Below are positions 3,330 through 8,710 of a DNA stretch of 28,604 bases, in pieces. The notes beneath the pieces were generated by a model. It did not search any database. It was not told the origin of the DNA and worked only from the letters and a program-made list of their open reading frames with translations. Both the position numbers and the translations under genes were made by a program. The stretch is from a virus. How positions within the stretch are numbered: the stretch's first letter is position 1; each line of letters begins with the position of its first letter. Location: the IMG/VR virus record IMGVR_UViG_3300011115_000367, positions 1 through 28,604 of that record; one strand, 5' to 3'.

Positions 3330-3526
3330 GCATCCTCGATACGATACTAGGTTTTTTTGCTAAACAAGTACGGAAGTCGGAAGTAATTGTTCCGATTACT
3401 CTTGAGAAGCCACATACAATAAAAGATAATAATCAATCTATAAATAATGGGGCAGTCAATGAAAAATCTGATGCTAGTTTGCGAAGCGAAACTAAGCCTA
3501 GACGAAAGCGAGTCAAGCAGCAATAG
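3326..3526 (+). CDS. Small basic protein between portal and protease
   Basis: This 66-residue ORF has no recognised family. It starts within the portal stop (ATGA overlap), the usual arrangement for coupled genes in this phage, which argues that it is translated. The N-terminus is a short hydrophobic helix (MSILDTILGFFAKQ) and the C-terminus is strongly basic (KPRRKRVKQQ). Its last 68 bases overlap the start of the protease gene in another frame. It could be a small head-assembly factor, or only a translational bridge that brings ribosomes to the protease start. Its function is unknown. Confidence 0.5.
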   Translation: MSILDTILGFFAKQVRKSEVIVPITLEKPHTIKDNNQSINNGAVNEKSDASLRSETKPRRKRVKQQ

Positions 3527-4241
3527 AGGCTCTATAGAGGCTCGTGCTACTACTTGGGGTGCGAGAGAAGGGCTAGACGGACGGCGATTTAATTATCAGC
3601 CGGAGGGCTTTGCTCAATGGGCAGACGAATTCTCCAAAGCGGACAAACCGCTTCCTATGTTCTTAAACCATAACGACAGCGGTATGCCTGTCGGTCAGTG
3701 GAACGAATTTACTTTTGATGAAGAAGGCATGACAGCTAAAGGCCAAATCTATATGAATACGGTCGGTGGCTCTGATCTTCATTCCGTATTAAAAGAATCT
3801 CCCAATATGTTCGGCGGTGTCTCTGTCGGTGCATTTGCTGAAGAAGCCGCGCTGGTCGATGAAGAAGGCAATCCCACTAAAGAATCCGATGGATACTTCA
3901 GAATAACTAAGGGTGGCTTGCGTGAAGTCTCTGTCGTAATGTATCCCAATAATCCAAGTTCTGAAATCAGTAGGCTAGAGGCGTTTGATGCCGAAGGCCA
4001 TTTATTGATTAGAGTAATCGAAAAGACTCTGCGGGAAGCAGGGTTAACGCGAAAAGATGCGACCACCGCGTCTTTGGTTTTTAAGAGAGTAGTCGAGGCG
4101 CGGGAAGCCCTCAACGAAGCTCTTGATCCTCAACCAAATCAGGGGGAGCCTGACGCGGTGGCAACAAAGCAAGCCGACGAAATTCTTAAAGCTCTAAAAG
4201 AGCGGGAATTACTGAAGGCATTATCCCAACGTCTTAAATAA
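3459..4241 (+). CDS. Prohead maturation protease (S78 family)
   Basis: Head-maturation proteases of this type cut the N-terminal delta domain off the major capsid protein inside the prohead. From the ATG at 3459 the protein has 260 residues. The likely catalytic His is H71 in LNHNDSGMPVGQW, Ser is S122 in GGVSVGAF, and the supporting Glu is E156 in LREVSVVMYP; all match the family's spaced motifs. The C-terminal third is charged and helical, as expected for a fused scaffold segment. I prefer 3459 over the ATG at 3447 because GGGG lies seven bases before it. The gene ends 10 bases before the first capsid gene, which has a protease-dependent type of N-terminal arm. Confidence 0.93.
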   Translation: MKNLMLVCEAKLSLDESESSSNRGSIEARATTWGAREGLDGRRFNYQPEGFAQWADEFSKADKPLPMFLNHNDSGMPVGQWNEFTFDEEGMTAKGQIYMNTVGGSDLHSVLKESPNMFGGVSVGAFAEEAALVDEEGNPTKESDGYFRITKGGLREVSVVMYPNNPSSEISRLEAFDAEGHLLIRVIEKTLREAGLTRKDATTASLVFKRVVEAREALNEALDPQPNQGEPDAVATKQADEILKALKERELLKALSQRLK

Positions 4242-4251
4242 GGAAATTAAA

Positions 4252-5595
4252 ATGAACGAAGTAATCGAGAAGCTAGACCATATCGAAGCAGCTAACACCG
4301 CCAAGATCGAAGAAATCAAGAGCGAAGTAAATGTATCTTTGGAAGCTGTACGCGCCGAGGTCGATGAGAAAGTAGCAGCCCTAGAAGCTAAGGTTGCATC
4401 TATCCAAATCCCTTCGATCATTCAGCCTAAAGCTAAGACCGTTTCGCAAGATGTGAACCGCAGAGTTAAGGAACAACTGAGCGACTTCGTAAAGTCTAAT
4501 AGCCGGATGGAAAAAGAGATCAGCCTATTCGAGAGCGATTCGCAGTATGACGCTTTCTTAAAAGAAGCCGCTGGTCTACAGGGTTCTGGTGCAGGGGTCG
4601 GTGGTCGTACTGCATACGATCCTGTATTTGTTGCATTGCGTTTGGCTAATCCTATGCGCGGCGTATCTCGTACCGTTGCTACTGATGGCTCTACATATCA
4701 ATTTCGCGCGAAAATTGGCAATTCTGCGCCCGCGTGGGGCTATCCTATCCAGAACAACGGAGCCGCAACCACAGTCGCAACCAATATCTGGCAACTGACT
4801 TTGCAAGATATTAACGTACAGTTCCCATTGCGTACCGCTGCACTGGACGATATTGACGGTCTGGAAAGCAATGTAGTCTCAGATATGTTGGTCGAGTTCT
4901 CGGAGCAAGAAGGAATCTCAATGATCCAGAATGATGACCAAAGTTCTGATGCTGGTGTTATCGCTGCTACTGGCGGTATCAATGGCTTGCGCGGTCTGAA
5001 TCAATACGCTGGTGGATCGGGGGCATACGCTGGTGGTGTAACCACTACCGCTGCATACGGAAATAGCGGAACAGGCTCTAGCAGTGGATTGTCTAGCATC
5101 GCTACCTACGATCAGTTAGTAACGAATGGCAACACCGCTGGCGCAGCTAACATCCAGTACAAAGACGTTATTAACTTCATCTACGCTTTGCCACAACAGT
5201 ATTGGACAACCTCTGCCCGTTTCGTTATCAATCCAATCTTGCTTTCACAGATTCGCGGATTGACCGATGACAACGGCACACCAGTATTCGAGCGTATGAG
5301 TCCTCTGGAAACAGACGGAATCGTAGGCCGCTTATGTGGATTTGATGTTGTTGTTAACAAGTATCTTGATACTCCTAGCTACGCTGGAGTAGACAAGCCT
5401 GATCTGTTCCCAATGTATTTTGGTGACTGGTCACGCGGTCATACCATTGTTGATCGTATGAACATGATTATGCGGAGATACGACCAGTCACTCCCCGGAT
5501 TTATAACCTTTTATGGTGAAAAGCGTCTTTGCACCAGTGTTGTTGATCCTTTCAGCATCATTCGTTTCCGTTCTACCCATACGGCTAACGACTAA
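4252..5595 (+). CDS. Major capsid protein 1 (HK97 fold, with N-terminal arm)
   Basis: This is a 447-residue HK97-fold capsid protein. Residues 1-55 form a charged, heptad-like coiled coil and residues 60-108 a linker, resembling the delta domain that acts as scaffold and is removed by the protease. The folded shell domain starts near GSGAGVGGRTAYDP (about 111-124) and includes LDDIDGLESNVVSDM and the C-terminal block LPGFITFYGEKRL. An AAGGA ribosome site precedes the ATG. It is followed by a second, paralogous capsid gene. The folded parts match along their whole length; for example, DIDGL and SM..N.DQ are shared. Capsid identity is very likely; the exact cleavage point is not visible. Confidence 0.95.
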   Translation: MNEVIEKLDHIEAANTAKIEEIKSEVNVSLEAVRAEVDEKVAALEAKVASIQIPSIIQPKAKTVSQDVNRRVKEQLSDFVKSNSRMEKEISLFESDSQYDAFLKEAAGLQGSGAGVGGRTAYDPVFVALRLANPMRGVSRTVATDGSTYQFRAKIGNSAPAWGYPIQNNGAATTVATNIWQLTLQDINVQFPLRTAALDDIDGLESNVVSDMLVEFSEQEGISMIQNDDQSSDAGVIAATGGINGLRGLNQYAGGSGAYAGGVTTTAAYGNSGTGSSSGLSSIATYDQLVTNGNTAGAANIQYKDVINFIYALPQQYWTTSARFVINPILLSQIRGLTDDNGTPVFERMSPLETDGIVGRLCGFDVVVNKYLDTPSYAGVDKPDLFPMYFGDWSRGHTIVDRMNMIMRRYDQSLPGFITFYGEKRLCTSVVDPFSIIRFRSTHTAND

Positions 5596-5601
5596 GAATG
5601 C

Positions 5602-5621
5602 GCGGGGGAGAAATCCCCCGT
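5602..5621 (+). terminator. GNRA-loop hairpin between the two capsid genes
   Basis: A perfect 7-bp GC-rich stem (CGGGGGA with TCCCCCG), extendable by one G-U pair, is closed by a GAAA tetraloop. It lies seven bases after the capsid 1 stop and just before the leader of capsid 2. Only a short mixed T-run (TCTTTCC) follows, so it could be a partial terminator, or a stabiliser of the 3' end of the upstream message that sets the ratio of the two capsid proteins. Confidence 0.55.
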
Positions 5622-5645
5622 CTTTCCAATTTAAAGGAAACTCAC

Positions 5646-6686
5646 ATGAGCCAAATTCTCGAAGCAATCAAGACAGCGTTGGCCGACGGGGTTCGGGCTG
5701 ATGTAAGTTTGAAAGAAGCAGCCGGACTGACTGGTTCCGGCACTGGTGTCGGCGGTCGCGTTATCTATGACCAAGCCTTTGCCCCATTAAGATATGGCAA
5801 CCCCTTTCGTCTGTGTGGAGTTCGTGAAATAACCACCATCGGATCGGAAGAAGCCTTTGTAGTCAAGACAGGTAACGCTACAGTAATCCAGACCAGCACT
5901 ACGAATCCGTGGGGCTATGGGATAAAGAATGATGTGGGCGATTACGAAACCGCCTTCTGGCAAATATCACAAAAATCAATTAATGCAGTGGTGCCGATTC
6001 GGACTGCTATTCTGTCAGATATAGATGGGCTGGATGAAAGCATTGTTTCGGATATAGCTTTAGAATTCGCGCAGCAAGAAGCCTTGTCGATGATGTTAAA
6101 TAATGACCAAGCAAGTGGAGCGTCGACACCGCAGACGGGACAGACCGACGGATTGCGTGGGCTGAACTTATACGCTGGGAGTACATCAGCGGCATCGTTC
6201 GGCACAAGTGGATCAGCAGTTACGAATGGCCGCCATACAATGCTACAAACCGCTGCGGCGTCAAAGACTGTTGTTACTTATGATGACTTGACCGCTTTAG
6301 CTTCCGCGCTACCCGCTCAGTATTGGATGAGTCCTTGTACCGCGTGGATGATGCACCCGAATACCATCCAACTGTTCCGGCAATTAAAAGATACGTCTGG
6401 ATTCCCTGTTCTGTTTGAATCGGGAGATGATGACGGTGGTTCGCTATGTAGTATCTTTGGATTCCCGGTCATCCCAAATCCTTATATGAGCCAATATGGG
6501 GCGAATACCTATCCCATTTATCTTGCGGCGTGGGATAACTTTATGACTATCGCAGATAACGAGATGATGAGTATCCAGCGTCTTGAGCAATATCAACCCG
6601 GATTCATTTCTCTGTACGCTGAGAAGCGGGTATGTTCAACCGTTCGTGATGTGTTCGCGGGTGTGCGTGTAGTCTGTCCGGCGTAA
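5646..6686 (+). CDS. Major capsid protein 2, arm-less paralogue (HK97 fold)
   Basis: This 346-residue protein is a second HK97-fold capsid protein, paralogous to the gene just upstream. Shared blocks include LKEAAGL.GSG.GVGGR, NP.R, RTA.L.DIDGL, VSD...EF..QE..SM..NDQ, NGLRGLN/DGLRGLN.YAG and PGF...Y.EKR.C.TV. The shell domain begins at about residue 30, against about 111 in paralogue 1, so the scaffold-like coiled coil is absent. I choose the ATG at 5646 because AAAGGA stands eight bases before it; the upstream ATG at 5598 would run through the hairpin. It may form mixed capsids with paralogue 1, make another lattice position, or be a minor form. It is intact, with no sign of decay. Confidence 0.9.
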   Translation: MSQILEAIKTALADGVRADVSLKEAAGLTGSGTGVGGRVIYDQAFAPLRYGNPFRLCGVREITTIGSEEAFVVKTGNATVIQTSTTNPWGYGIKNDVGDYETAFWQISQKSINAVVPIRTAILSDIDGLDESIVSDIALEFAQQEALSMMLNNDQASGASTPQTGQTDGLRGLNLYAGSTSAASFGTSGSAVTNGRHTMLQTAAASKTVVTYDDLTALASALPAQYWMSPCTAWMMHPNTIQLFRQLKDTSGFPVLFESGDDDGGSLCSIFGFPVIPNPYMSQYGANTYPIYLAAWDNFMTIADNEMMSIQRLEQYQPGFISLYAEKRVCSTVRDVFAGVRVVCPA

Positions 6687-6696
6687 GGAGTTAGCT

Positions 6697-7359
6697 ATGG
6701 CAGTCGAGAATATGACGCTATCGGAGTTCTTCGGGTCAAACCGAAATCCGTATAACTATGCGAAAGTAGAACAGATAGCGAGGGATACCACTACTCAATG
6801 GCTAACGCTTGAGGAGATCACTCAACAGCTAAACTTGTTCCAAGACGAATCTCAGGACGCTTATCTTGAGAGTATCGAACTAGCAACTCGATTCGCCATT
6901 GAAGATTATTTAGGTATGGCTATATTCAGTACGCAATTCAGAGTGTATTACGGTAATTCTGGCGTGTATGGTTCTGCACTTTATCTCGACTTGCCGGAAG
7001 TATCAATTGGATCGGCGGGTGTAACGCTGAACTCGGTGGTTTATTACGGAGTGGAAAGTAATGCACCAATTACTCTGGCAGCGGGTAACTATTTCTACGA
7101 TCAGACAGGGAATAGAGTTGTGGTATCAGCAATACCGACCACGCTTAATCAGACCATAGACAATCCAATCATCGTTACTTACACCCAGAATTCTAACCCT
7201 ATGGCTTTCTATCCAGTAGTCAAACAGGCTGGATTGATGCTGCTTACTCACCTTTATAACAATAGAAGCGCGAGTTCTACGGGTGAAATTAATCCGGCTG
7301 TAATGATTAGTTGGGGCGTGGATACTTTGTTGCGTCCCTATAAACCACTCGTGATGTAA
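6697..7359 (+). CDS. Head-tail connector (gp6-like adaptor)
   Basis: This 220-residue protein sits directly after the capsid genes. The segment WLTLEEITQQLNL..DESQDAYLESIELATRFAIEDYLG (about 35-75) matches the first helices of HK97 gp6-like adaptors, which form the ring under the portal. The C-terminal helix KQAGLMLLTHLYNNR also fits that family. The central beta-rich region (about 80-165) is larger than in HK97 gp6 and resembles extended adaptors in related phages. A strong AAGGAG ribosome site precedes the ATG. The stop and the next start overlap as TAATG. Confidence 0.88.
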   Translation: MAVENMTLSEFFGSNRNPYNYAKVEQIARDTTTQWLTLEEITQQLNLFQDESQDAYLESIELATRFAIEDYLGMAIFSTQFRVYYGNSGVYGSALYLDLPEVSIGSAGVTLNSVVYYGVESNAPITLAAGNYFYDQTGNRVVVSAIPTTLNQTIDNPIIVTYTQNSNPMAFYPVVKQAGLMLLTHLYNNRSASSTGEINPAVMISWGVDTLLRPYKPLVM

Positions 7360-8159: not shown

Positions 8160-8684
8160 ATGGCACTGATTAATAAAATTTTACCCGGATACACAGCAAC
8201 CCTCTGGATGCAAGAGGCTGCAACTCCTACACCGTTTTCTATTGCTCATCTTTCAACGTGGACAGGTTGGGTAGAAGAAATCGTAGGAACTTCTGCTGGC
8301 GGTAACGGCACTACAGGTATGGCGGTTCCTGTTGAGGCTGTACCTGCTTTCGGTGCGGATGATGCTGTAGCTGCTTACTCGGTAGCTGGCGCAAGAACAG
8401 GCGCGAAGGTCACGACGCAAAATCAAGTAACTTCATTAACGGTTACTTCTGCTTGGAATCCTGCTGACGTGGCACAATTGCAAATCCGTGAAGATGGATA
8501 TGGCGGTACAATTGTTCGCACCTATGTGGTCGCAGTCTATGACGGCACCGATACTGTCGCTTATGCCTTCAATGGTATGGTCGGTGGTTTGAAGTGGGAT
8601 TTACAGCCTAACGCCGAAAGTAAGTTTGAGTTCACTATCCATCCGATTGGTGGATTGAACTACGGCTGGTCTAACAACACTTAA
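8160..8684 (+). CDS. Major tail tube protein
   Basis: This 174-residue protein is rich in beta strands, Gly, Thr and Ala, with few charged residues, as usual for siphophage tube subunits that stack as hexamers around the tape measure. It has its own leader with a strong AAAGGA ribosome site, eight bases before the ATG, and is followed by a tetraloop hairpin, both consistent with high expression. Gene order (after tail terminator, before the chaperone and tape measure) is the standard one. The segment GLKWDLQPNAESKFEFTIHP near the C-terminus looks like a closing strand pair. No Ig-like extension is present. Confidence 0.85.
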   Translation: MALINKILPGYTATLWMQEAATPTPFSIAHLSTWTGWVEEIVGTSAGGNGTTGMAVPVEAVPAFGADDAVAAYSVAGARTGAKVTTQNQVTSLTVTSAWNPADVAQLQIREDGYGGTIVRTYVVAVYDGTDTVAYAFNGMVGGLKWDLQPNAESKFEFTIHPIGGLNYGWSNNT

Positions 8685-8690
8685 AAGATG

Positions 8691-8710
8691 AGCCGCCCTT
8701 CGGGGCGGTT
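8691..8710 (+). terminator. UUCG tetraloop hairpin after the tail tube gene
   Basis: An 8-bp stem (six GC pairs plus one G-U and one A-U) is capped by a UUCG loop, a very stable RNA hairpin, starting about six bases after the tube stop. There is no long T-run after it, so termination would be partial at best. It may mainly protect the 3' end of the abundant tube message and lower expression of downstream tail genes. Its 3' arm is G-rich and lies just upstream of the next start codon. Confidence 0.6.

Follow-up and report, generated by a model that had tools for sequence, protein, structure and literature searches.

The window, by which we mean the whole stretch of viral DNA that was analysed (28,604 nucleotides of the IMG/VR record IMGVR_UViG_3300011115_000367), carries genes for a terminase, a portal, an S78 prohead protease, two capsid proteins referred to here as A and B, and a head-tail adaptor, all in one direction. 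A and B are neighbours and both reading frames are intact. The features of the locus are the following.

3447-4241, + strand: prohead protease (Peptidase_S78), directly 5' of A; PF04586 at 6.8e-09, PHROG head maturation protease at 7e-13
4252-5595, + strand: A, major capsid protein, 447 aa; PF05065 at 4e-25, TIGR01554 over residues 9-433, AlphaFold2 model, Z of 21 to the GTA capsid
4252-4560, + strand: arm of A, residues 1-103, helical at 2-50, 64-81 and 96-107 in the AlphaFold2 secondary structure, with no counterpart in B
4561-4608, + strand: junction motif of A (KEAAGLQGSGAGVGGR), common to B; probably where the protease cuts or where the mature N-arm begins
5602-5621, + strand: hairpin 3' of the A stop codon, with an 8-bp stem and a GAAA loop, then CTTT; recognised by family comparison
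5633-5638, + strand: ribosome site of B, AAAGGA, from the sequence and a ribosome-site scan
5646-6686, + strand: B, second capsid protein, 346 aa; PF05065 at 1e-22, AlphaFold2 pLDDT 75.1, Z of 23 to the GTA capsid
6697-7359, + strand: head-tail adaptor Ad1, next after B; PHROG at 2e-11 and 2e-9, PF05135

B starts at the ATG at 5646, which has AAAGGA ahead of it and is aligned as the start codon across the relatives. The ATG at 5598 was considered as a start and rejected; it sits at the hairpin, has no ribosome site and is not the aligned start of the relatives.

A and B are paralogues with a predicted HK97 fold. Their sequences share 39% identity over A 100-438 and B 19-341 (E 2e-67), and profile-profile comparison aligns them from A102/B23 to the end with a probability of 100%. 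Both proteins score above the cut-off for PF05065 and for the NCBIfam model TIGR01554 (8e-27 for A and 1e-21 for B). AlphaFold2 models were built with 43 relatives of A and 53 relatives of B, and have a mean pLDDT of 67.8 for A and 75.1 for B. The E-loop hairpin, the spine helix and the P-domain strands of the HK97 fold are found in both models. The best solved structural match for each protein is the capsid protein of the Rhodobacter capsulatus GTA (A: Z 21.1 with an rmsd of 3.7 over 254 residues; B: Z 23.0 with an rmsd of 4.4 over 268 residues); EcCI2, Mycofy1 and HK97 come next. The GTA capsid is also the top profile match for both. Profile match and predicted fold therefore place A and B among the HK97-fold major capsid proteins. 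A sequence-only reading of the window had recognised HK97 shell motifs in both proteins and had called both genes intact; the searches and models agree with it, and structure prediction puts the second protein inside the HK97 fold, not outside.

The two proteins differ at their N-termini. About 100 residues lie ahead of the shared block in A and about 20 in B; the arm difference that had been described from the window is thus real, but the figure of about 30 residues given for B was too high. The median distance to the GG[R] motif is 117 residues for the 235 A sequences that were counted (5-95% range 115-123) and 37 residues for the 265 B sequences (range 34-45), by which measure B does not have a long N-terminal arm. 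The proposal that these phages encode one shell protein with an arm and another that lacks it is well supported as a conserved genetic design. A has the features of a delta-domain-type capsid protein, with a helical arm of ~103 residues and an S78 protease directly upstream. B begins with a short conserved helix (consensus LILEAIKxALxEG), which is followed by the block EASALTGSGSGVGGR, near-identical to that of A. Conservation between A and B peaks at the arm/shell junction, in the motif KEASALTGSGxGVGGR, with 23 of 31 consensus residues identical over A105-135. Consensus identity between A and B is highest in the N-arm (74%) and low in the A-domain (36%). Since the junction motif is kept in B, B probably meets the same protease as A, and the earlier suggestion that B is a form that escapes proteolysis is not supported.

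Relatives were gathered from IMG/VR and metagenome bins, and some of the loci overlap on one contig. At least 591 relatives were found. The phage family is large, mostly uncultured and from freshwater; three source contigs or bins are labelled beta- or related proteobacteria. The order protease-A-B-adaptor is present in 274 of 290 loci, which are all those long enough to include it. The 16 flagged loci consist of 14 contig ends, one locus (L052) in which A is frameshifted and B is kept, and the distant outgroup Bcep176 (L290), which has a single capsid gene. The cultured relative is Methylophilaceae phage P19250A (KX815270), in which the gene order, both capsid genes, the hairpin and the codon contrast discussed below are all found. 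Its A and B are 64% and 51% identical to those of the window, and its B is annotated just as a hypothetical protein.

In a tree of 56 A-B pairs, A and B fall on opposite sides of one long branch with a support of 88. This two-sided split fits a single old duplication that would have given rise to A and B before the family diversified. Rooting the tree with Bcep176 is unreliable because of its very long branch. Strong purifying selection acts on both genes (median dN/dS of 0.083 for A and 0.092 for B), and B evolves faster than A, with a median identity of 0.58 versus 0.67. A pseudogene or a recent duplicate was rejected on the basis of the dN/dS of ~0.09 and the separate groups that A and B form in the tree. 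It was also observed that B has been swapped by recombination in some loci in which the neighbouring head genes are still similar (L270/L158, L120/L129 and L194/L096). For example, L270 and L158 are 82% identical in the protease, 93% in A and 99% in Ad1, yet 68% in B.

Variations in B have been observed among the relatives. In eight loci the B frame extends upstream of the B start by ~100 open codons, which encode a 100-residue domain in frame with B, located as follows.

L040, 995-1294
L041, 5692-5991
L042, 1190-1489
L044, 5692-5991
L079, 153-452
L130, 1326-1625
L189, 4273-4572
L199, 5692-5991

This domain (RGLxWRKEFGRGGTEVGVARARDI...; PHROG 2859) is also found near the N-terminus of the 840-970-residue 'major capsid proteins' of Synechococcus phage S-CBS3 and Roseobacter phage CRP-831, and the PHROG 2859 domain occurs in Vibrio phages too. 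Because the ATG of B itself is kept in the eight loci, two products are possible there. B may have gained a new arm in this subclade, and given the upstream domain it may not be arm-less in every relative. A second variation is a glycine- and threonine-rich insert of ~70 residues in the E-loop of B alone (L076:5923-7173, L078, L081:4863-6107 and L145:6095-7336). The insert is present in two lineages, L076/L078/L081 and L145, was not seen in A, and has no match in Pfam.

The hairpin after A has the stem GCGGGGGA / TCCCCCGT and a GAAA loop in the window. Of 119 distinct 3' ends of A, 92% have a hairpin with at least 5 GC pairs; the corresponding figure is 0-3% for terL, portal, the protease, B and Ad1. 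The mean MFE is -18.4 after A, -3.7 to -7.3 after these five genes and about -2 to -7 after the other head genes as a group. The hairpin 3' of A often has a T-rich tail in the family, and in an RNA alignment (n=36; stems placed imperfectly) its base pairs are maintained despite two-sided changes. A generic terminator scan did not pick up the A-B hairpin in the window because the T-run is short there; it is the family comparison that reveals it. The hairpin remains at the 3' end of A where genes separate A from B (L040, L042, L044, L074 and L120), and a role in controlling the translation of B is therefore less likely. A GC hairpin is also found 3' of another gene, g9 (8160-8684), in ~21% of the relatives, and in the window a stem with 6 GC pairs lies at 8693-8708 after g9. 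The hairpin may indicate that g9 encodes a further abundant protein of the virion, for which the major tail protein is a candidate. Hairpins of this kind are not restricted to the bulk capsid gene, as they are found 3' of T4 gene 24 too and, in this family, after a minority of the other genes.

Codon usage separates A from its neighbours. The mean fraction of C-ending codons is 0.53 for A, 0.36 for B, 0.37 for portal, 0.37 for terL, and 0.36 for Ad1, with protease, portal, terL and Ad1 together spanning 0.35-0.37. The fraction is higher in A than in B in each of the 56 genomes (0.55 vs 0.41 in the window alone). The codon usage of B is indistinguishable from that of the low-copy genes portal, terL, protease and Ad1; among A and its neighbour genes the codon bias typical of highly expressed genes is confined to A. 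B had been credited with a strong ribosome site of its own after a hairpin. The hairpin is there and the AAGGA of the window is decent, but across the family B has weaker ribosome sites, which match over a shorter length than the sites of A. Taken together, the hairpin after A, the codon bias of A and the weaker ribosome sites of B suggest that B is made in small amounts. All three are indirect measures of expression; codon bias and hairpins indicate that A is favoured, and none of the three gives an A:B ratio. These signs of unequal dosage disfavour another suggestion made from the window, a fixed mosaic of A and B in equal doses.

T4 has been said to be the sole characterised virus that uses separate HK97-fold proteins for pentamers and hexamers (PMC12407261). 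The propeptide of its gp23 has 65 residues and that of its vertex protein gp24 has 10 residues (PMC9958956). The arm/no-arm split, which had been called the unusual point of this locus, has a similar counterpart in T4, one that points to a vertex role, which was not among the roles suggested from the window. As in T4, A and B are neighbouring HK97-fold paralogues located 3' of a prohead protease, and the long N-terminus belongs to the presumed bulk protein and the short one to the presumed minor protein, although that of B is only a putative propeptide. The codon contrast is similar (C-ending fraction of 0.53 for T4 gene 23 and 0.37 for gene 24), and a hairpin follows the major gene in both cases; in T4 gene 24 is followed by one too. 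In some relatives A and B are separated by homing endonuclease genes, as T4 genes 23 and 24 are by segD (GIY-YIG). Those in L120, L074, L246 and L275 have a GIY-YIG-like start, and the one in L114 is of the HNH type.

No sequence relation between A/B and gp23/gp24 was detected. The profile of B scored 3 bits against gp24 (E 0.0065) in a search among three sequences only with the filters off, and the hhalign probability was 0.5%. B therefore resembles a gp24-type vertex protein in adjacency, paralogy and a shorter N-terminus, but not in sequence. Because of this the A/B duplication is probably independent of that in T4, which would make the likeness a case of convergence. There are further differences. 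A and B are 39% identical, whereas gp23 and gp24 are 17-20% identical; the only cultured relative with A and B is a siphovirus with a 39-kb genome; and the delta-type arm is fused to the capsid protein itself, the protease and A having no gene for a separate scaffold between them.

A is similar to HK97 gp5 and to the R. capsulatus GTA capsid (rcc01687) in its delta-type arm, its adjoining S78-type protease and its HK97 fold. The heads of HK97 and the GTA use a single capsid protein for both hexamers and pentamers; here, however, there are two capsid genes. A further comparison is the Family 2B encapsulin of Streptomyces lydicus, in which two HK97-fold proteins co-assemble into mixed capsomers with random tiling at ~60:40 (PMC12407261). 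Both systems have two HK97-fold shell proteins, seen there in co-assembly and here as genes, but the encapsulin is a cellular compartment with no portal or maturation. To our knowledge it shows no arm difference of the kind found between A and B. In the literature that was searched, with most subscription journals outside its reach, T4 was the only tailed phage found with two capsid paralogues, and as far as that literature shows the capsid pair found here is undescribed.

What is the role of B? We consider it reasonably probable that B would be a dedicated low-copy subunit of the shell, most likely the vertex pentamer, working like gp24 and independent of T4. The vertex is the most likely position because the second protein of T4 sits there and has a much shorter propeptide (PMC12407261, PMC9958956). 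A would be the bulk subunit, with its N-terminal arm serving as an in-built scaffold that would be cut off by the adjoining S78 protease. The hairpin would stop or protect the A transcript, leaving B and the later genes to be transcribed by read-through at a lower level, and the weaker ribosome sites would reduce B further. Made in much smaller amounts and with no large arm, B would take a dedicated minority place in the shell. If the shell is T=7, an assumption taken from the size of the genome, B pentamers at the 11 non-portal vertices would amount to 55 copies versus ~360 of A. Most of the scaffold would remain with arm-less pentamers, because these would make up only about one in seven or eight subunits of a T=7 shell. 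On this reading we infer from the genes that B is present in the shell, at the vertices and in low abundance, and that both proteins are cleaved.

There are softer signs that fit a vertex role. Some of the T4 mutations that bypass gp24 lie in the A-domain of gp23 (PMC9958956), and it is in the A-domain that the divergence between A and B is high. The E-loop insert found in B alone would also fit. However, a tight fit at the vertex might resist the recombination of B alone seen at some loci.

The other readings of B are less likely. It is possible, at a clearly lower level of confidence, that B would be a minority subunit within hexamers or within both types of capsomer, and that its missing arm would loosen the scaffold and tune curvature or size. 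The N-arm and spine blocks common to A and B could allow co-assembly, and the mixed capsomers and random tiling of the two-component encapsulin show how this might look (PMC12407261). The signals of unequal dosage, however, oppose an equal mix, and the high divergence of the domain at the capsomer centre would, as a softer argument, hamper mixing. Somewhat less likely still is an arrangement in which arm-less and armed subunits would follow a fixed minority pattern within hexamers, the absence of scaffold setting curvature or head size. If true, this would be a new geometry control for an HK97-type shell, unlike that of T4.

Size control had also been proposed from the window. It is possible but doubtful that B is a determinant of head size or shape, for example of elongated heads, acting in assembly and present only in part of the shell or not at all in the virion. 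The two-protein case of T4 does have a prolate head (PMC9958956), and the signs of low B dosage would suit such a role. However, the accessible description of P19250A says no more than that it is a siphovirus, nothing in the sequence favours elongation, and B keeps the full shell fold and the junction motif. It is quite unlikely that B sits solely at the portal vertex and connects the shell to the portal or neck as an adaptor. The B gene does adjoin that of the head-tail adaptor and resembles the adaptor group in codon usage, but B is a full HK97 shell protein and the adaptors of tailed phages have other folds. Gene duplication is common and B is the faster evolving of the pair, but a spare copy with no distinct role is the least credible reading and is largely refuted already by conservation, as B is present in all loci with room for it, has a dN/dS of ~0.09, and has conserved residues and a short N-terminal helix that are particular to it.

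To date, T4 is the only case described of an unequal division of labour in a two-protein shell, and it is likely, judging from the genes, that A and B form a second natural two-protein shell of the HK97 type. If B is a vertex protein, it would be a second and independent case after T4, in a much smaller and simpler phage, and one that spans hundreds of environmental genomes as well as a cultured member. It would then be testable why a shell evolves a corner protein and why the scaffold arm is dispensable there. The 'hypothetical protein' adjoining the capsid gene in these phages would, if this is true, be a structural head gene.
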